A stretch of DNA of 48,957 nucleotides. Origin: Chlorobiaceae bacterium (GTDB taxonomy: Bacteria > Bacteroidota > Chlorobiia > Chlorobiales > Chlorobiaceae). Positions within the stretch are counted from its first letter, which is position 1, and the number at the start of each line of letters is the position of its first letter. The stretch spans positions 1 to 48,957 of the forward strand of contig JAAXXP010000007.1 of assembly GCA_013334435.1 (NCBI GenBank), given 5' to 3'. The notes beneath the pieces are model-generated. The model was not told where the DNA came from, ran no database searches, and was given only the letters and a program-made list of their open reading frames with translations. Position numbers and translations under genes: made by a program. Of this stretch, positions 31,035 through 48,957 are shown one piece after another.

Positions 31035-31058
31035 CGCTATATTCTCTTATGCATAACG
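31035..31058. promoter_or_regulatory. ModE-like operator J (upstream of mod operon)
   Basis: CGCTATAT-TCTCTTAT-GCATAACG; 8-8-8 spacing, each half 7/8 to CGTTATAT / AYATAACG. Confidence 0.65.
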
Positions 31059-36890: not shown

Positions 36891-38810
36891 TTAAATATTG
36901 AAGGCGACACCTCCATAGAAGCAGGTGCCTGTAGCACCTGAACCGCCGATATTGCCATAAACGTCAGGTTCCACGTCGAAGATGTTGTCAACACCGATGA
37001 ACAGGTTCGCAACATCGCTGACCTGCCTGGACAGGTAAGCGTGCACCAGTGTATAGCCGTCGGCACGCTCGTACCCTTCGACCCACTGCCTGCCGGCGCT
37101 CACAACCCGGATGTTTCCCCTGAGTCCTCCCTGACTGTCGCTGTAGGCAAGCTTGAGGGTATTGGTCACTCCCGGCACGTAGAGCAGGTTCTCTCCGTTG
37201 CTGCCGTCTTCGGTATCGATGAAACTCAATTCGTCGGAAACCGTAAATCCGTAAGGAAGCCGGAGAGCTGCCGTCAGTTCGATACCTCTGGTCATGGCTT
37301 CGGAAATATTCCGCAGTTCATACGAGGGAATGCTGTTCTTTCCCTCTCTGACATAGCCGACGAACACTTCATGGATCATGTCCCGCATATCGTTGCGGAA
37401 AGCCGTCAGACCGAAAGAAAAGTCTTTCCACGAAAGATCGGCGCCCACTTCATAGGAACGGGAGCGTTCGGCATCGAGATCGGCATTGGCGTAGACGATC
37501 TTCTTTTTCGTATAGGTAGACCCGGTATAAAGCTCATAGAGGGACGGGGCGCGGAATCCTTCGCCGTAGGATGCCCGAAGGCGGAGAAGATCGCTGACGC
37601 GATACCAGAGCGCGGCCTTCGGGCTCGCGGCCGATCCGAAATCCGAATGGGTGTCGTACCGTGCCCCGATCACGAGGCCGGCCCTGTCGCCGAACAGCAT
37701 TTCATCCTGGAGGAAGGCCCCGAAATTGTCGGAATCATGGTCGAGCTCACCGTCGGTACGATCTTCGTTACGGTATTCCACCCCGGTGGTGATGCGATGG
37801 TTTCCTGCGATCGGCCCTGTCCAGCGGGCCTCCGCCTGCCGGCTCGTCTGTTCGAGCGTCGTGGTGGTCGTGGCGCCCCCGACCACAGCGGTCATATCCG
37901 AAGTCCAGTCATACGAAGACTGCCACGCCCGGACATGCAGCGAAGACTCCGCTCCCGTGGCCAGTTCGACACCGGCATAGGCTGAAATCCTTTCGGCATC
38001 GACGGTGCGTTCAAAATCGCCGCTTGTCTGGGTACGATACCCTTCAAGTTCCGTATCGGCATAATTGAACCCGAAAGAAAGCGTTGCCGATGGGGACAGA
38101 TCATAGGTCAGTGAAGTCTGCGCCGAGCCAAGAATCCGGTCGTCGCCGTCGGTCATCAGGTCGGATTCGTCGCGGTCATACCTGTCCTTGTTGCTGTATC
38201 CCCCTGAAACCACATAACCGAATTTCCCCGTTCTGCCGCTCAGCCAACCCTCCGTCAGGACAGTAGCCGCATCACCGTGACGGCTTTCGCCCCCGCGCAA
38301 TGTCAGACCCGCATGAAACGTGTCCGAAGGTTTTCTGGTAATGATATTGACGACGCCGGCTACCGCATCGCTGCCGTACAGGGCCGATCCTGAGCCGCGA
38401 ACCACTTCTATCCGGTCGATCATACCGGCTGGGATTTCGGAGAGATCGACATAATCCTGAAAACCGGAGGTCAGCCGCATGCCGTCAATGAGTACCAGCA
38501 CATGCCTGCCGTCGAGCCCCCTGAGCCGCGCAACACTCTGACGCCCGCTTGCAGGTTCGAGACTGACGCTCTGCGCCTCGGTCAGCAGGTCGGCGACGGT
38601 TTTCGCCCCGCTTTCGACAATCTCTTCCCTGCCGATTACTTCAACTGCCGCCGGAATCTGTGAAACCGGCGTTCGGTTGAGCGTAGCCGTCACCACGACC
38701 TCTCCTGTCTCATAGTATTTCGCGGACTCTGCCGCCCCGGCAGCTTCAGGGTTCAGCAGGAATTGCAGACATCCTGCAAGCATAAGTAATTGAAGGGATT
38801 GTTTCTTCAT
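36891..38810 (-). CDS. TonB-dependent outer-membrane receptor (BtuB/CirA-like)
   Basis: Signal peptide, TonB box-like GEVVVTAT, plug ARLRGLDGRHVLVLIDGMRL...VVRGSGSALYGSDAVAGVVNIIT, C-terminal aromatic GGVAFNI. Start at MKKQSLQLLML. Confidence 0.93.
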   Translation of the reverse strand: MKKQSLQLLMLAGCLQFLLNPEAAGAAESAKYYETGEVVVTATLNRTPVSQIPAAVEVIGREEIVESGAKTVADLLTEAQSVSLEPASGRQSVARLRGLDGRHVLVLIDGMRLTSGFQDYVDLSEIPAGMIDRIEVVRGSGSALYGSDAVAGVVNIITRKPSDTFHAGLTLRGGESRHGDAATVLTEGWLSGRTGKFGYVVSGGYSNKDRYDRDESDLMTDGDDRILGSAQTSLTYDLSPSATLSFGFNYADTELEGYRTQTSGDFERTVDAERISAYAGVELATGAESSLHVRAWQSSYDWTSDMTAVVGGATTTTTLEQTSRQAEARWTGPIAGNHRITTGVEYRNEDRTDGELDHDSDNFGAFLQDEMLFGDRAGLVIGARYDTHSDFGSAASPKAALWYRVSDLLRLRASYGEGFRAPSLYELYTGSTYTKKKIVYANADLDAERSRSYEVGADLSWKDFSFGLTAFRNDMRDMIHEVFVGYVREGKNSIPSYELRNISEAMTRGIELTAALRLPYGFTVSDELSFIDTEDGSNGENLLYVPGVTNTLKLAYSDSQGGLRGNIRVVSAGRQWVEGYERADGYTLVHAYLSRQVSDVANLFIGVDNIFDVEPDVYGNIGGSGATGTCFYGGVAFNI

Positions 38811-38822
38811 ATCGCGGTCAGG

Positions 38823-38846
38823 CATTATAGATTTATTTACATAACG
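38823..38846. promoter_or_regulatory. ModE-like operator G, just upstream of the TonB receptor start
   Basis: CATTATAG-ATTTATTT-ACATAACG; 8-8-8 spacing, begins 12 nt upstream of the start codon. Confidence 0.5.
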
Positions 38847-38875
38847 ATTAATAAAAAAAGCAACGTATCCTTTCA

Positions 38876-38912
38876 GATCTTCTCGACCATCTCCCTGCCG
38901 GCCGAGAAGACC
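38876..38912 (-). promoter_or_regulatory. Stable RNA hairpin in the TonB receptor leader
   Basis: Minus-strand RNA GGUCUUCUCGGCC...GGUCGAGAAGAUC: 13 pairs including 2 G-U; a U7 run follows about 16 nt later. Confidence 0.55.
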
Positions 38913-38949
38913 TTTGATCCCGCTCATGCCTCTTGCTCCAACGCTTCCA

Positions 38950-38969
38950 CTGCCGGATCTATCCGGCAG
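38950..38969. repeat. 9-bp perfect inverted repeat in the TonB receptor leader
   Basis: CTGCCGGAT-CT-ATCCGGCAG. Confidence 0.75.
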
Positions 38970-39023
38970 GAAAGCGCAAAACCAAAAGCGGAAAACAGTT
39001 TTTTCATCTATGAATCACCACAT

Positions 39024-39047
39024 CGCTATAACATTAAAAACATAACG
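39024..39047. promoter_or_regulatory. ModE-like operator F, upstream of TonB receptor / downstream of cobA
   Basis: CGCTATAA-CATTAAAA-ACATAACG; flanked by AT...AT, 8-8-8 spacing. Confidence 0.6.
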
Positions 39048-39062
39048 ATAGGCAAAAAAAAC

Positions 39063-39878
39063 TTACCGGATGAAACCGTTCGAAACAAGTACGCCCGGGG
39101 GCAACACGCCCTCAGGGCTGTTTCTCACCCCGAGATGCCTGCCGATGAAATAAACGACCGGCTCCCTGAGCTTTCCGGAGGCCAGCAACCCCGCGATATC
39201 TCCCATTGTCGCAAGCCCGCACGCCTCATCGGGCCACCCCGATCGTGCAACCGCAACGACCGGCACACAGGAAGGCACCCCCTCTTCGGCAAACACCCTG
39301 AAAATACCGGAAAGATTCCGTGTCGCCATGTAGAGCACAATGGTTGATCCGTGCCTGATCAACTTCGCCGCATCACGCACCAGCGCAAAATCATCGGTTA
39401 TCTCGTTGGCGATGAGGCTGGTCACCGAATCGCTCTGATATTTTTCACTGACCGGCATTGCATAGCCTGCCGCCGCCGCGGCTCCGGCACTTAATCCCGG
39501 TACGACCTCGAACGGAATGTGCATGCTGCCGAGAGCAAGGCACTCATCCTCCGGAGAGCCAAACAGTAAAGGATCGCCGGCTCTGAGACGAACCACCCGG
39601 AGCCCTTCGTAAAAGAATTCACGCATAAGCCGGAGCATGCGCGAACTCCCTGCCTGACCGGAAGGCCCATCATGCCTTACCCGTTCGATAAACCGTACAG
39701 TGGCCGAGGGCGATGCGATGCAAAGAGCCGGTTCGACGGTAGGACAATCGTAGAGAATAACCTCGGCATTCCCTATGATCCGTGCCGCCCTGACGGTCAA
39801 CAGGTCCGGATCGCCAGGCCCGGTCCCTACTATGGAAACCGGATGGTGGACTGGTTCACCATTCATTGTTCTTTCCAT
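39063..39878 (-). CDS. cobA: Uroporphyrinogen-III C-methyltransferase (SUMT)
   Basis: VSIVGTGPGDPDLLTVRAARIIGNAEVILYD, VRLRAGDPLLFG, EVVPGLSAGAAAAAGYAMPV. Confidence 0.92.
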   Translation of the reverse strand: MERTMNGEPVHHPVSIVGTGPGDPDLLTVRAARIIGNAEVILYDCPTVEPALCIASPSATVRFIERVRHDGPSGQAGSSRMLRLMREFFYEGLRVVRLRAGDPLLFGSPEDECLALGSMHIPFEVVPGLSAGAAAAAGYAMPVSEKYQSDSVTSLIANEITDDFALVRDAAKLIRHGSTIVLYMATRNLSGIFRVFAEEGVPSCVPVVAVARSGWPDEACGLATMGDIAGLLASGKLREPVVYFIGRHLGVRNSPEGVLPPGVLVSNGFIR

Positions 39879-39892
39879 ACCATTTATTTGTT

Positions 39893-39916
39893 CGTTATAT
39901 AATAAAAGATATAACG
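39893..39916. promoter_or_regulatory. ModE-like operator A, perfect palindrome in the cobA / lysR divergent promoter
   Basis: CGTTATAT-AATAAAAG-ATATAACG; perfect 8-bp dyad, 8-nt spacer, starts 15 nt upstream of the cobA ORF start. Confidence 0.75.
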
Positions 39917-40035
39917 TTTCGCAAAGGGAAGCCTTTATATCGACATCAAAACCGCGCCATAAGCTGAATCAATAAGGAGAAACCGAAAGAAGGCCGAAAA
40001 ACAGTGCGACTTATACGCAATAAACCTGAAATACC

Positions 40036-40947
40036 ATGTTTGACTATCGTCTGAAAGTATTTGATACCGTGGCACGGCGGTTGAATTTCACCAAAGCCGC
40101 AGAGGAGCTCTGCATCACCCAGCCCGCCGTCACGAAGCATGTCAAGGAGCTTGAAAAACATTTCGGACTGCAACTCTTCGAACGCAAGGGGAACAGGGTA
40201 GCCCTGACCGAAGGCGGCCTTCTGATACTGAAGCATACCGGATTGCTACGGGAGATAACCCGGCAACTCGAGTATGAGATGCACCGGCTCCATGATTCCC
40301 ATCAGGGCCTGCTGAAACTGGGAGCAAGCACGACAGTTGCCCAATACGCCCTGCCTCCGCTGCTTGCGAAATTCCACCGCGTATACCATGACGTGAACCT
40401 GCAGATGCTTACCGCCAATACCGAGCAGGTAGAACAGGCGCTGATCCGCAAGGAAATTGGACTGGGTATCATCGAAGGAGATACGAAGCGAAAGGATATG
40501 ATGTATACCCCGCTTGCCGATGATGACATCATACTGGTAAGCGGCGCGAAAAATCCCTTCGCAAAAAAAGAGGAAATCAGGGTCGAAGATCTCCTCACCA
40601 TTCCCCTGCTGTTAAGGGAACCGGGATCCGGAACGCTTGAGGTCGTCACTCACGCCCTCAAGAACTCGAACATACGGATTTCCGATCTTGCCGTAGAAAT
40701 GTATCTCGGAAGTTCGGAAGCGATAAAATCCTATCTGGTGCATTCGCAGTGCATGGCCTTCATTTCTCGACATGCCGTCATGCATGAGGTTGCAAACGGA
40801 TTGCTGAAAATGGTCAGGATCAAAAAATTCTCGATCCGACGGAGGTTCTTCTTCATCACTCCCGAGGGCCAGGTCGGAGGGCTGCCTGAAGTGTTCATGC
40901 GATTTGCCTCCGATCATTACAGCGACCTGCTCCCCGCTCAATACTGA
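40036..40947 (+). CDS. LysR-family transcriptional regulator (CysB/YeiE-like)
   Basis: FDTVARRLNFTKAAEELCITQPAVTKHVKELEKHFGLQLFERKGNRVALTEGG; LysR effector domain follows. Confidence 0.94.
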   Translation: MFDYRLKVFDTVARRLNFTKAAEELCITQPAVTKHVKELEKHFGLQLFERKGNRVALTEGGLLILKHTGLLREITRQLEYEMHRLHDSHQGLLKLGASTTVAQYALPPLLAKFHRVYHDVNLQMLTANTEQVEQALIRKEIGLGIIEGDTKRKDMMYTPLADDDIILVSGAKNPFAKKEEIRVEDLLTIPLLLREPGSGTLEVVTHALKNSNIRISDLAVEMYLGSSEAIKSYLVHSQCMAFISRHAVMHEVANGLLKMVRIKKFSIRRRFFFITPEGQVGGLPEVFMRFASDHYSDLLPAQY

Positions 40948-42418: not shown

Positions 42419-44014
42419 TCACCGGTATTTTTTATAATTGATACCGAGCTTCTGCATCTTCAGACTCAAGGTTCTTCTGGTGAGCCCAAGAGTTTCTGCT
42501 GCAGCTGAAATATTGCCCTTATGATCGCACAAGGCCTCGATGATCATCTCGTACTCTACGGAATTGACTTTTGCTCCAAGCCCCTGCTGTGTGCTGCTGC
42601 CCGATACGGCTGTTTTCTGAAGGGATAGCGGAAGGTCATAACCATGAATGACATCACCTTCGGCGATAATGAGCGCTCTCTCGATAACATTTTCAAGCTC
42701 CCTGACATTTCCCGGCCAGGGATACGAAAGCAGCATCTCCTGCACAGGAATCGATATGCCGTTTATCGACTTGCTGAATTTCTTCGAAAAACGGGAAACG
42801 AAAAATTCCGCAAGGGCAATGATGTCACTGTTTCTTTCGCGCAGGGGAGGGATGACGATAGGAAACACGTTAAGCCTGTAGTACAGATCTTCCCGAAAAC
42901 GCCCCTCTTTGACCATCTGCTGCAGATCGCGATTCGTTGCGGTTATGATTCTTATATTGACTTTTATGGTCTGATTCCCGCCTACACGCTCGATCGTCCT
43001 TTCCTGCAGCACCCGAAGGAGTTTTGCCTGGACAGGCAGCGACAACTCTCCGATTTCATCGAGAAAGACAGTCCCTCCGTCGGCCTCCTCGAACCGGCCC
43101 TTTCTGGCCCTTTCCGCACCGGTATAAGCGCCTTTCTCATGACCGAACAGCTCACTCTCTATGACGCTTTCAGGCAGTGCGGCACAATTGAAGGTAACGA
43201 AGGCCTTATCGGCATCCACGCTGTTGTAATGTATCGCACTGGCGACAAGCTCCTTGCCGACGCCGCTTTCTCCAAGAATCAGTACCGTGGACCTTGTTCT
43301 GACGATTTTATTGATCAGGGAATAAACCTCAAGCATAGGCTTCGAATTGCCTATGATATTCGAAGGGTGAAATCTCTCTTTGAGCGCATTCTGAAGGCGC
43401 TCGTTTTCCATGCGCAAAAAGTGTTTGTCCTCATTCTCGAGCAGATAGAGCTCAACCGCCTGGGCAATCATGGCGGCAACGATACCGAGCAGTTCAACGT
43501 CGAAGGCAAGCAGCTCGTGATCTTCGCAGACCCGTTCGACGCTTATGGCCCCCAATACCTTCTTGCCCCGCAAAATAGGTATGCAGACAAAAGAAAGCTC
43601 CCTGTCTTCCTGAGAGAGAAGGCTTTTCGTCCGGTTCAGAAAATTCGGCTCCTTGCCGATTACGGGCACGATTATTTTCCTGCCCGTTTCTACCACTTTT
43701 CCCGTAATCCCTTCGCCGATGGAATAGACTCCACGGGTTTCCTCTTCCCTGGAGAGCCCTATGCTGTCATGGATGAAGATTTTCCCGGTTCTGCTGTTCA
43801 GCAGGTTGACCATGCCCCTGATAACCCCCATATCCTCTTTCATGATCTTCAGCAGCACCGCAAGCGTATCCGAAAGACTCGAGGATTCGACAACCACCTT
43901 GCTTATGCGGAACAGGGAGGACAATATGTTCGCACGACAGATCGAGCAGTCGTTCTGCAGGGATTTTTCACACGCCCTGGTTGCGCAGAAGTGTAGCCGT
44001 TTTTTTGCGCTCAT
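42419..44014 (-). CDS. anfA: Sigma-54-dependent activator of NifA/AnfA family (GAF-AAA-Fis HTH)
   Basis: GAF domain, [34 protein letters not shown] (GAFTGA-type), C-terminal Fis [30 protein letters not shown]-terminal Cys cluster [17 protein letters not shown]. AnfA assignment rests on neighbouring anf genes. Confidence 0.85.
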
Positions 44015-44414
44015 GGTTCATTTTCTTTTCGCGTGATACAATTAACAATTCACCCGGCAGAGCTTCGAGGCGTTGCCCCCCTGCAAAAGCCATGTTTCCC
44101 AGGAATGACGTCAAGGGTCCCGTAACTGAGCACGAAATGACCGCCCCTTCCCGAAACGGGGCCTGTTCCGCCGGACCGGCAGGAACTGGTTGCATTTGTC
44201 AGGGAGATACGTTGCTGAGGCATTCCGACCCGGGCATCACCAAACAGTTCCGAATACATAGACACCTTGATCACACCATGTCATGATAAATACGGATACA
44301 TAACGATATCCCGGCCGCCCGATCCGCAGCAGAGCCGATGTCCATCGCCTCCCATACGCTCCGCATTGCGCCCTGTTTTTGGACACAGTGAATCGGAGGT
44401 TCCATAACAGGAAC

Positions 44415-44460
44415 ATCGCATCGCTGTAACGACGGAATATCCGCGTTGAAGCGATGCGAT
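44415..44460. repeat. 10-bp inverted repeat in the anfA upstream region
   Basis: ATCGCATCGC...GCGATGCGAT with 26-nt spacer. Confidence 0.6.
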
Positions 44461-44494
44461 CGCCATTGACGGCGGGCTGCGCCGCACAGTCAAT

Positions 44495-44518
44495 CGTTAT
44501 GTAATAAAAAACATAACG
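44495..44518. promoter_or_regulatory. ModE-like operator B, perfect palindrome between nifB and anfA
   Basis: CGTTATGT-AATAAAAA-ACATAACG; perfect 8-bp dyad, 8-nt spacer. Confidence 0.75.
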
Positions 44519-44565
44519 TGGTACAAAAAAAACATCCTCTTCGAGGGAGTACAGGCGCCTCGTCT

Positions 44566-45840
44566 TCAGGCGCAGCCGCCGCCGGTTCCGCCGCAGCTGG
44601 TTCCGCAGGCGTGTATCGGATTGCTTTTCATAAAAGCGGTCAAATCCTTTCCCGTAAAAAGTCCGAAAACGGCATCCTCGATAATGCCGTCCATAAGCAT
44701 GACCTCTATGCCCTTCTCCCTGAGCACGCTGATCGGCGAATCACCTGCGGCGCTTACCAGAAGCGCCCTGCAGTCTTTCAGAATACCCGACAGTATCTCC
44801 CACCTTTTCCGGCCACCGCCTGGAAGAGGTGCGACTCTTGAATCCAGAAGAACACACCTGTCGCCCTCGGGAGCCATGGCATAAACGAGAAAGCGGTCCG
44901 CTTCTCCCAGATGCTGACCGATCCGTACGCCATCCAGACTGCTGACGGCTATACAGGGTCGGGGCCCTTCCTGATTTTCCGGCATCAGTGCTGCGGTTGC
45001 CAGTTCCCGCATCATGCCGTCACTGTTGGCTTCTCCGATAATGCCGACCGCATCGGCCCGGCAACGGGCGCAATGCTTCATTTGCGGCAGATATTCGGCT
45101 GTCGCATCCTGTATTTCGAGAACCACTTCCGGTAATGGCTCCGGAATGTTTTCGAACACGGTTCCGGGATTACTGTAGTAGGGCATACAGTTGAGAATAT
45201 CCGCGCCAAGGCCGGCAACTGTTCGTGATACCTCGACAATATGGGCATCGTTTATGCCGGGAATGATGATGGAGTTCACCTTGGCGGTGACACCCGCCTC
45301 CTTCAGCTTTTCAAGAGCATGAAGCTGTCTTTTTATAAGGAGTTTAGCGGCATCGACATCCCTGTAGAGTTTCTTTTTATGACGTACCCATGTATAGATC
45401 TCCGATCCGATTTCCGGATCGACAGCGTTGATGGTAATGGTGACGTGACTGACCTCCAGCTCGGCAAGCTCATCGATATAAGGCAACAGATCGAGACCGT
45501 TGGTTGCAATACAAAGCAGCATTTCGGGATATTTTGCCCTTACCAGCCGCAGCGTTTCCATGGTCTCCGATGGATTGGCGAACGGGTCTCCCGGTCCGGC
45601 AATGCCCACCACGGAAATGTTCGGAGACATCGCCATTGCCCGATCCAGATAGTGTATGGCCTGCGCCGGCGTAAGGAGTTTGCTTGTGACGCCCGGACGG
45701 TTTTCGTTCATGCAGTCGAACTTCCTGTTGCAGTAATTGCACTGGATATTGCATTTCGGCGCGACAGGGAGGTGGATTCGCCCGAACCTGTGACGCGACT
45801 CATCGTTGAAGCAGGGGTGGTTTTCTGTTTTCAGTGGCAT
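44566..45840 (-). CDS. nifB: Nitrogenase cofactor biosynthesis protein NifB with C-terminal NifX-like domain
   Basis: Radical SAM CNIQCNYCNRKFDCMNENRPGV, VGIAGPGDPFANP, C-terminal IAVSSLDGVRIGQHLGEADRFLVYA; terminal CGTSCGGTGGGCA tail. Confidence 0.94.
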   Translation of the reverse strand: MPLKTENHPCFNDESRHRFGRIHLPVAPKCNIQCNYCNRKFDCMNENRPGVTSKLLTPAQAIHYLDRAMAMSPNISVVGIAGPGDPFANPSETMETLRLVRAKYPEMLLCIATNGLDLLPYIDELAELEVSHVTITINAVDPEIGSEIYTWVRHKKKLYRDVDAAKLLIKRQLHALEKLKEAGVTAKVNSIIIPGINDAHIVEVSRTVAGLGADILNCMPYYSNPGTVFENIPEPLPEVVLEIQDATAEYLPQMKHCARCRADAVGIIGEANSDGMMRELATAALMPENQEGPRPCIAVSSLDGVRIGQHLGEADRFLVYAMAPEGDRCVLLDSRVAPLPGGGRKRWEILSGILKDCRALLVSAAGDSPISVLREKGIEVMLMDGIIEDAVFGLFTGKDLTAFMKSNPIHACGTSCGGTGGGCA

Positions 45841-45913: not shown

Positions 45914-46594
45914 TTACCCGCATGATGAACATCCCGATCGATGCCCATTGCGGCGAGCATCCGAACGGACGGATATGAGCCATCGGCCATCTTCAAGTGG
46001 CGTGGTAGAGAAATTCAGCTTCATGGCGCCAAGTTCACCCGGGAACCATTTCGGAACATGGTCGCAGACAATATCAAGCCTGGTGAAAGGGGTCGATTGC
46101 AAAAAGGGAAGCAGGATATCTTTTGAGTTATGACCTGTTCCGCTGCCCTGCACCTGACTGATATCGATCGTGTAGATCCCCGCGCAGCTGCCGCCCAGAA
46201 ATGCCGGTACCGCCATATCCGAAGCAGATGCCCGGTTTGCCGCAACAGCCGCTGCTGCCGCTTCGGCAGCCTGAGCAGTCAGCTGCATGACGTTGTCAAG
46301 CTGGTCCGCAGGATCCCCAGCGACGGACCAGAGCGTAAATCCAAGCTCGATCAGCATCGTACGGGGAAAACCCCGGACATCCCGGAGAAGCATGATACGG
46401 CAGTCGCCAAGTTTCGCCGCAAGCGTCTGGATTGCGTCTTTGAGGGAGGCCAGCCCGGGGTGGCCTCCGGGTTCGAAAGCAAAGGCGTCGCCAGCTTTCC
46501 ATCGATCTCCCGCCAGGGTGTAGATGATCACCGTTCCCGGCTCACCAAAAGGTATGGCATGGCCATTGCCGTCGACTATCGCTGCTATATGCAT
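45914..46594 (-). CDS. anfO: Iron-only nitrogenase accessory protein AnfO
   Basis: MHIAAIVDGNGHAIPFGEPGTVIIY...LGDCRIMLLRDVRGFPRTMLIELGFTLW; AnfO-like and located downstream of anfK. Confidence 0.82.
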   Translation of the reverse strand: MHIAAIVDGNGHAIPFGEPGTVIIYTLAGDRWKAGDAFAFEPGGHPGLASLKDAIQTLAAKLGDCRIMLLRDVRGFPRTMLIELGFTLWSVAGDPADQLDNVMQLTAQAAEAAAAAVAANRASASDMAVPAFLGGSCAGIYTIDISQVQGSGTGHNSKDILLPFLQSTPFTRLDIVCDHVPKWFPGELGAMKLNFSTTPLEDGRWLISVRSDARRNGHRSGCSSCG

Positions 46595-46661
46595 GGTAAC
46601 TCCGTTTTCATGTTCACACCAGGGATCCGCTAAAAGCGGATGCATTATGGTAAAGGACCCA

Positions 46662-47153
46662 TCAGAATCCGTGTTTCTTGCCCTTGATCGATTCGATTTC
46701 GATGCGGACAACCGCTGTGTTATCGAGGCTTCCCTGCGGGTAGGAAAACTTCCTGTCGGTGAAACGTGCGACGATCATGTCAAGCACTCTCACTTTTTCA
46801 GAAATGTCTTCAATGATGCCTGCCTTGCCGAAACCGATCACCGTACGATGGCGCGCCTCGAAATCGCAGGCCATATCGTTCTCGATCACGCCCTGATCCA
46901 CCGAGACCTCGAAACAGAGCCGGTCGTTCCGGCTGAGAATCTCCATTTTGGTGCCCTTGCTGGATGAATGGAAATAGAGCGCCGCTCCATCATAGGCGTA
47001 AAAAACCGGCACGAGAAACGGAACGTTGTTGTCGCTGAAGGCAAGGTTCATCACGGTCGATAAGCCGAGAATGGCGTCGATCTCATCCCGACTGGTGATC
47101 TCCCGTTCCTTGCGGCGCATGGCTCCGAAGGGAGGAATGGTACTGTTGCTCAT
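46662..47153 (-). CDS. Pyridoxamine 5'-phosphate oxidase-like FMN-binding protein (anf cluster)
   Basis: FGAMRRKEREITSRDEIDAILGLSTVMNLAFSDNNVPFLVPVFYAYDGAALYFHSSSKGTKMEILSRNDRLCFEV. Confidence 0.85.
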   Translation of the reverse strand: MSNSTIPPFGAMRRKEREITSRDEIDAILGLSTVMNLAFSDNNVPFLVPVFYAYDGAALYFHSSSKGTKMEILSRNDRLCFEVSVDQGVIENDMACDFEARHRTVIGFGKAGIIEDISEKVRVLDMIVARFTDRKFSYPQGSLDNTAVVRIEIESIKGKKHGF

Positions 47154-47252: not shown

Positions 47253-48641
47253 TCACCACATATTGAGAATCCATTCTCTGCTTTTCTTGTACTCCATGTC
47301 GGCGAAAAGCGTGTTTGCCATCTGTTCGGCAAGCCATGTCGCACCGGCATATCCGACAACCGGATAACGGTAAAGGCCGGCTCGGTCGTAGGTCGGAAAG
47401 CCTACCCGGACCATGGGAATGTTGTGATCGATTGCCACAAACCGGCCTTTCGAATGGCCGAGTATCAGGTCGAGTTCGAGCCCTTCGTTGATGATCCTGT
47501 TCTCAAGATCCCAAAGGTCGGCATTCATGACGATTTCCATGTCGTAATCGACGTTTTCCTGCAGCGCCCTGATACGGGGGTCTTCCGCATAGGCGGTGTT
47601 GTCGTCGCCGAGAAGAAGCAACTTCGGCTTCATTTCCAGATCGAGGCAAAACTCGGCAAGACCGATGACCAGATCGGGGTTACCGTAAATGGCGACCTTC
47701 TTGTCGGCAAGAAACATATGGGTAAGATCCGTAAGCGCATCGATCGCCCTGCCCCGTTCAAGAACAAGAGACTCCGGAACAGGCTTGCCCGTCATCCTGC
47801 TAAGATTCTTCAGGAAGGTGTCCGTATTGCGGATGCCGACCGGAGTTGGCCCTATGATGGAAGGAATCCCGAACTCCTTTTCGAGATATTTCGCCGCTTT
47901 GGTTCCTTCGTACCGGTTCAGGGCAATCGTTCCATAGGCATTTGCCGTATCTTTCAAATCGGCAATGGTCGTATTCCCATGCGAAACATGGTTGCCGTCC
48001 GGCATAAGCGGCGAATCGAAACTCTCGATTTCGAAAAGCACGGTCGCATCGATCTGCATTTCCGAGAGCAGGTGCTTCAGGGCTGTCACGTCACCGGGGT
48101 TGACCCAGCCGGTTATAAGATTGATCCTGCCGTTCGGTTCGCCTTTCTCGGCGAAGTACCTGACGAAATCCCTCACCGCCGTATCGTACCCGCTGATCAT
48201 GCTGCCGACGAAGCTCGGACAGTGGATCGGGATGAGGTGTACCTCGCGGCCGGCATACTTGGTGTCGAGCAGCTCCTCCTGCAGCTTGATGACGACACCA
48301 TCCACGTCGTCGCCGATCACCTCCGTCGAGCAGGTGGTGATGATCGGAATGACCTTGACGTCGGGATAGCGCATCAGCAGAACGTCGACGGCCTGCTCCA
48401 CACGGTCGAGCGCACCGAACACGGCGCCATCCTCGTGCACGGATGAAGATGCGATTTCGAAGCTTTCCTTGAAGTGCTGGGAAATCAGCAGCCTGACGAA
48501 CATGACGCAACCCTGACCGCCGTGCACGATGCCGATGCACTCCTTGATGCCGATGCTGGCAAACTGGGCGCCGGCGGGCTGACAGGTGAAGATCGGGTTG
48601 ATAACGCCGGTCCGTTCCTTGGTTTTAAGTTCACAGTTCAT
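47253..48641 (-). CDS. anfK: Iron-only nitrogenase (FeFe) beta subunit AnfK
   Basis: INPIFTCQPAGAQFASIGIKECIGIVHGGQGCVMFVRLLISQHFKESFEIASSSVHEDGAVFGA, TTCSTEVIGDDVDGV, FEIESFDSPLMPDG, SHGNTTI, LNRYEGTKAAKYL; recalled AnfK sequences fit better than VnfK or NifK. Confidence 0.9.
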   Translation of the reverse strand: MNCELKTKERTGVINPIFTCQPAGAQFASIGIKECIGIVHGGQGCVMFVRLLISQHFKESFEIASSSVHEDGAVFGALDRVEQAVDVLLMRYPDVKVIPIITTCSTEVIGDDVDGVVIKLQEELLDTKYAGREVHLIPIHCPSFVGSMISGYDTAVRDFVRYFAEKGEPNGRINLITGWVNPGDVTALKHLLSEMQIDATVLFEIESFDSPLMPDGNHVSHGNTTIADLKDTANAYGTIALNRYEGTKAAKYLEKEFGIPSIIGPTPVGIRNTDTFLKNLSRMTGKPVPESLVLERGRAIDALTDLTHMFLADKKVAIYGNPDLVIGLAEFCLDLEMKPKLLLLGDDNTAYAEDPRIRALQENVDYDMEIVMNADLWDLENRIINEGLELDLILGHSKGRFVAIDHNIPMVRVGFPTYDRAGLYRYPVVGYAGATWLAEQMANTLFADMEYKKSREWILNMW

Positions 48642-48697: not shown

Positions 48698-48957
48698 CTA
48701 ATAGCGGGGATCGGTGAGTTCTTCGTTGAGAGAGCCGTCTACCAGGACGTAATCCAGACGCTCCCTCAGGGCCAGAAAGAGTTCCCTGATCTCGTCCTTG
48801 CTCATCGAAGCCAGCCAGTCGAATCTCTCTCTGTACGAATCGGCAAGGTAGACGGCATCTACCCAGTAACACCGGTCTGCAGGGTCTTCCGTATTGACGG
48901 TTTCTCCGCAGAGCAGTTCAGCCGTCATCCTCAGAATGTTCTCGTTCTGGTTCTTTC
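48698..48957 (-). CDS. anfG: Iron-only nitrogenase delta subunit AnfG (5' end outside window)
   Basis: ...NQNENILRMTAELLCGETVNTEDPADRCYWVDAVYLADSYRERFDWLASMSKDEIRELFLALRERLDYVLVDGSLNEELTDPRY; adjacent to anfK; open at window edge. Confidence 0.85.
   Translation of the reverse strand, partial: KNQNENILRMTAELLCGETVNTEDPADRCYWVDAVYLADSYRERFDWLASMSKDEIRELFLALRERLDYVLVDGSLNEELTDPRY

Follow-up and report, generated by a model that had tools for sequence, protein, structure and literature searches.

A predicted ModE operator in the probable promoter region of anfA, the activator gene of the Fe-only nitrogenase, in green sulfur bacteria

The way in which molybdenum controls alternative nitrogenases has been established in Proteobacteria. 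The locus described here raises the question of whether a perfect palindrome in a long intergenic spacer places the activator gene of the Fe-only nitrogenase under the same kind of control in a green sulfur bacterium. The window we analysed spans contig C84 (48,957 bp) from end to end and belongs to a draft genome of 2.02 Mb in 139 contigs. Its minus strand carries, in this order, anfG (truncated by the end of the contig), anfK, a gene for a pyridoxamine-oxidase-like protein, anfO and nifB; after a spacer of 551 bp comes the gene for a NifA-family activator. The nifB-anfA spacer, put at about 550 bp in a first-pass annotation of the sequence, covers 44015-44565, and both genes flanking it lie on the minus strand. 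The genes of the locus are:

48701-48955, minus strand: anfG, truncated at the contig end (tblastn)
47253-48641, minus strand: anfK (TIGR02931 above cut-off)
46662-47153, minus strand: gene for a pyridoxamine-oxidase-like flavoprotein, kept in anf clusters
45914-46711, minus strand: anfO (TIGR02940 above cut-off)
44566-45840, minus strand: nifB, at the 3' end of the anf gene set (TIGR01290 above cut-off)
42419-44014, minus strand: anfA, sigma-54 activator of the Fe-only nitrogenase, with GAF domain, AAA+ domain with GAYTGA, Fis-type HTH and N-terminal cysteines

The contig stops inside anfG, and part of the anf operon is therefore absent from the assembly. No match to anfD above the cut-off was found in the assembly, though it contains anfK, anfO and a portion of anfG. 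The activator was 72-79% identical to its anf-linked orthologues and about 52% identical to a second NifA-type paralogue of the relatives, which is without the N-terminal cysteines seen in the AnfA of the window. These identity values, together with the linkage to anfK, anfO and nifB, identify the gene downstream of the palindrome as anfA and not as a Mo-type nifA. RpoN is present in the genome. In three genomes, the distant G005 among them, a gene for a LysR-type regulator was seen close to the anf genes (40036-40947 in the window, L025:12556-13440 and L040:2965-3852).

In E. coli the modA-type ModE operator has the sequence CGTTATRT-N8-AYATAACG and overlaps the promoter for molybdate transport. 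The same inverted repeat, by which a ModE operator (Mo-box) is recognised, was found in the spacer:

44495-44518, minus strand: predicted ModE operator, perfect palindrome CGTTATGT-N8-ACATAACG (sequence, matrix score, conservation at anfA loci)

The palindrome, which reads CGTTATGT-AATAAAAA-ACATAACG in full and is as perfect as first annotated, lies 48 bp past the nifB stop and about 480 bp ahead of the anfA ATG, thus not near anfA. Its exact pattern occurred once in the 49-kb window, with none expected from shuffles of the window. When up to three mismatches were allowed there were five sites in the window against 0.09 expected, and each of these precedes a molybdate-transport, receptor, methylase or anf gene or lies where such a gene starts. 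We also scored the spacer with a position matrix whose training set comprised 16 non-anf sites from several genomes, four of them from the window, and in which the central 8 bases were left unscored. With this matrix, which holds no site from any anf gene set, the palindrome reached 26.1 of 27.4 bits, and a score of at least 20 bits was obtained in 0 of 20,000 simulated spacers (order-1 Markov, with the composition and length of the spacer). The match is not due to chance, and on every sequence feature used for assignment the palindrome is predicted to be a ModE operator.

The genome encodes one ModE match, a protein of 270 aa on contig C46 with an N-terminal LysR-type HTH and two TOBE/Mop domains (TIGR00637 above cut-off), similar over its full length to the E. 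coli ModE structures 1b9m and 1o7l. The gene belongs to a receptor-modA-modB-modE set that lies behind nifK-nifE-nifN-nifB-fdx, and two ModE boxes were located between fdx and the receptor gene (C46:10182 and 10268). The receptor-like protein encoded before modA-modB-modE (L016:6300-8528) gave no Pfam match, although relatives have it in the same position, at about 67-70% identity. Further boxes were found in the window by pattern and matrix:

31035-31058, plus strand: ModE box upstream of modD-modABC
39893-39916, minus strand: ModE box, 15 bp ahead of the gene for a tetrapyrrole methylase (39063-39878)
39024-39047, minus strand: ModE box upstream of a TonB-dependent receptor gene, with a T8 tract in register
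38823-38846, minus strand: second ModE box of this receptor gene, directly ahead of its probable start

The genes for the methylase, which is of the uroporphyrinogen-III type, and for the TonB-dependent receptor (window 36891-40947) share the three boxes at 39893, 39024 and 38823, and the pair is a candidate Mo-regulated uptake system. On contig C60 a strong ModE box was found 24 bp before a radical-SAM gene. The protein it encodes (L015:4001-5853, G000) had a weak periplasmic-binding-protein-like match at the C terminus, and its gene is followed by two more radical-SAM-like genes. The best sites of the genome were those at the two molybdate-transport gene sets, the TonB/outer-membrane receptor genes, the tetrapyrrole methylase gene, the radical-SAM gene and the nifB-anfA spacer. 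The genome-wide counts come from pattern searches. With up to three mismatches these gave 13 matches against 10 for a reversed-pattern control, so that matches at this level are mostly background, whereas with a tighter pattern the counts were 13 and 1.

The flanks of 12 anfA boxes were then aligned on the box and compared with those of the mod and receptor boxes. All of the anfA boxes carried a T-tract at -14 to -7 from the box, with a mean of 7.4 T of 8 as compared to 2.0 at the mirrored position. Positions -11 to -7 were T in 12 of 12, and position -6 was G in 9 of 12. The tract was looser in the mod and receptor boxes (5.7 of 8 versus 2.9 on the other side), and its occurrence there indicates that it belongs to the box and not to nifB. 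A TT(G) at -8 to -6 was followed at a spacing of 17 bp by a hexamer at +15 of the box that reads TAYATA or nearly so. This likely represents a promoter of the form TTG(NNN)-17-TAYATA, in which the right half-site supplies the -10 hexamer. In the window the elements are:

44525-44532, minus strand: T8 tract at -14 to -7 from the box, AT-rich promoter element in fixed register
44521-44526, minus strand: predicted -35 hexamer TTGTAC, 8 bp before the box (sequence; TT in 12/12, G in 9/12)
44498-44503, minus strand: predicted -10 hexamer TACATA, within the right half-site and 17 bp from the -35 (sequence and aligned boxes of relatives)
44490-44492, minus strand: predicted anfA transcription start, approximate, placed from the -10 position only and giving a leader of about 476 nt

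The asymmetry of the T-tract points to a promoter directed towards anfA, and a -10 hexamer within the right half-site of the operator would imply repression by promoter occlusion. The predicted architecture is that of the E. coli modA type, with the difference that it is found here at the activator gene of an alternative nitrogenase and with the T-tract in a fixed register. The register of the T-tract and the promoter derived from it are new in the present analysis; the literature searched gave no promoter consensus for Chlorobiota. No sigma-54 site was detected in the spacer of the window or in the other Chlorobiota anfA spacers examined, and a sigma-54 promoter for anfA was rejected on this ground. 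Sites of the NifA type (TGT-N10-ACA) and of the AnfA type (TAC-N6-GTA) were likewise absent from the box and the spacer.

The distance of about 480 bp between the box and the anfA ATG implies a long, unconserved leader. Two further elements had been annotated in this part of the spacer, an isolated half-site and a 10-bp inverted repeat, and both were found:

44282-44305, minus strand: weak possible second ModE site that holds the half-site (16.0 bits, P about 0.001 per spacer)
44415-44460, strand not assigned: imperfect hairpin (arms of 17 nt) that would lie in the leader of anfA, present once and not conserved

The half-site repeats ACATAACG at 44298-44305 and is part of a repeated 11-mer (44297-44307), which has an 11-bp identity with 44493-44503 (TACATAACGAT / ATCGTTATGTA). 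The site around it is without a T-tract and is not conserved; it could be an auxiliary operator. The inverted repeat has its core at 44415-44424 / 44451-44460 and is longer than originally described, with arms of 17 nt (44415-44431 and 44444-44460) that are 88% complementary. It was also considered as a member of a repeat family. This was rejected, as the hairpin is present in a single copy and its second match was the inverted repeat matching itself. An Rfam scan of the leader gave no family, with one sub-threshold match (18.9 of 35.7 bits, E 0.47), and the folding of the leader was not unusual (z -1.4); on both counts a structured RNA or riboswitch was rejected. A small protein encoded in the spacer was rejected as well, the ORFs being short and overlapping and the leader sequence unconserved.

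Among 98 genomes of the order, anfK was found in 11, and all 11 of these encode ModE. The upstream region could be read for 10 anfA loci in 9 genomes, and a box was present upstream of anfA in all 10, in four gene contexts:

Between nifB and anfA: G000, G167, G122 and G110, box present
Between a second nifB and anfA: G071 and G194, box present
anfA elsewhere, near modA: G181, the second copy of G194 and G138, box present
Between anfO and nifB-anfA, the box preceding nifB and anfA together: G005, which belongs to another family (single contig, 3.29 Mb), box present

The conserved block of the spacer consisted of the half-sites and the T-tract, while the central N8 and the leader were variable. 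In G138 the box nearest to anfA was weak (16.6 bits); a box of 20.5 bits is located farther upstream and may have modA as its target. G138 and G181 also have a box with T-tract behind a second nifB with no adjoining anfA, which we tentatively read as a remnant. These two boxes (L026:10590 and L042:4233) lie between two convergent nifB genes, the second nifB of G138 being inferred since the contig ends there. Upstream of anfA, a subgroup of the genomes carries a second nifB and, with it, a nifH/anfH-like gene with about 67% identity to AnfH (L027:11990-14065 and L041:13733-15783). The literature searched held nothing on point about ModE and anf in Chlorobi.

We consider it very probable that the palindrome is a ModE operator built into the anfA promoter, and that Mo-bound ModE represses anfA through it. 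The full-length ModE, the box at the molybdate-transport genes and the box at every readable anfA support this reading, which the first-pass annotation had already proposed. From the sequence we infer ModE binding, the promoter, repression rather than activation, and the dependence on Mo. When molybdate is available, a ModE dimer with molybdate in its Mop domains would bind 44495-44518 and cover the -10 region, and RNA polymerase could then not start anfA. Without AnfA, the sigma-54 RNA polymerase would not be activated at anfH and no Fe-only nitrogenase would be made. Once Mo is exhausted, ModE would leave, anfA would be transcribed from the housekeeping-sigma promoter (TTGTAC-17-TACATA behind T8), and the AnfA made would activate the anf genes. 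The backup Fe-only nitrogenase is thus probably off in the presence of Mo.

It is also conceivable that ModE binds the site and acts on something besides or other than anfA, for example through the leader RNA of 480 nt or by activation with Mo. The long leader would suit such a role, and the similar boxes of G138 and G181 imply that a box can be kept even with no anfA immediately after it. The E. coli ModE also activates at some promoters, which counts against a reading of repression only. However, a box over the predicted -10 is in the classic position of a repressor, the leader is unconserved in length and sequence and has neither an Rfam family nor unusual folding, and an anfA that has moved elsewhere again has boxes upstream. 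We therefore regard an action of this kind as unlikely.

Two readings leave ModE out altogether. Palindromes close to nif genes are often activator sites, and the box might be bound by NifA, AnfA or another palindrome-binding regulator. With both activator motifs missing, and with the box motif common to molybdate-transport genes, a NifA/AnfA site was rejected, and this reading as a whole appears very improbable. The position just past the nifB stop and beside the T8 tract would also fit a transcription terminator of the anf-nifB transcript, but on the coding strand the T-tract precedes the stem and does not follow it, the stem is AT-rich, and the terminator scan reported none at the palindrome. 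The T-tract and box are, moreover, also found ahead of the mod and receptor genes. Given the T-tract on the wrong side and the negative scan, the sequence nearly excludes a terminator.

A second box was seen at anfH in some relatives. In G167, G122, G110, G114 and G171 a ModE box of 15.8-24.1 bits lies within a few bases after a -24/-12-like element (TGGCAY-N5-TTG), which ends 75-81 bp before anfH. G005, G071, G194 and G138 have a -24/-12 element at anfH, which is canonical in the last three; within 400 bp their anfH promoters carry no box of this kind. The boxes adjoining the sigma-54 promoter in the five relatives suggest a double lock. We lean towards a two-tier Mo lock on the Fe-only nitrogenase of green sulfur bacteria, with ModE acting at the anfA promoter-operator and, in part of the group, just downstream of the -24/-12 element of anfH. 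No description of a second operator at anfH was found in the literature searched.

Repression of anfA by the Mo-dependent regulators MopA and MopB through a Mo-box is known in Rhodobacter capsulatus (PMC6925177). The first-pass annotation had named this precedent correctly but too narrowly, as A. vinelandii is also known (PMC6925177, PMC9542535), where ModE1 and ModE2 act at vnfA1 and anfA (PMC9542535). The system predicted here would resemble that of R. capsulatus in its ModE-type regulator, Mo-dependent repression of anfA, housekeeping-sigma anfA promoter and need of AnfA for anfHDGK, whereas R. capsulatus has two redundant regulators and activation of anfA by NtrC (PMC6925177) and the genome of the window one ModE match. 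It would share with A. vinelandii the ModE sites in promoters of alternative-nitrogenase activators, and one anfA start of A. vinelandii is inside a putative ModE site (PMC9542535), similar to the overlap predicted here. The anfA of A. vinelandii has in addition a sigma-54 autoactivated promoter and control by V, in contrast to the Chlorobiota anfA spacers examined, which are without a sigma-54 site; a modE1 modE2 double mutant of A. vinelandii retains some of the Mo repression of anfA (PMC9542535). The ModE-anfA wiring would thus be a known kind of regulation, now in another phylum.

This reading yields a specific prediction that rests on a single site, the palindrome. If the second tier holds true, a Mo repressor directly blocks an enhancer-activated promoter, that of anfH. 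The predicted ModE regulon, with its receptors, tetrapyrrole methylase and radical-SAM gene, bears on Mo scavenging in sulfidic, Mo-poor water. The ModE-anfA wiring across the anf-bearing Chlorobiota, a distant family of the order included, suggests that the Mo-before-Fe-only hierarchy uses the same repressor outside Proteobacteria.
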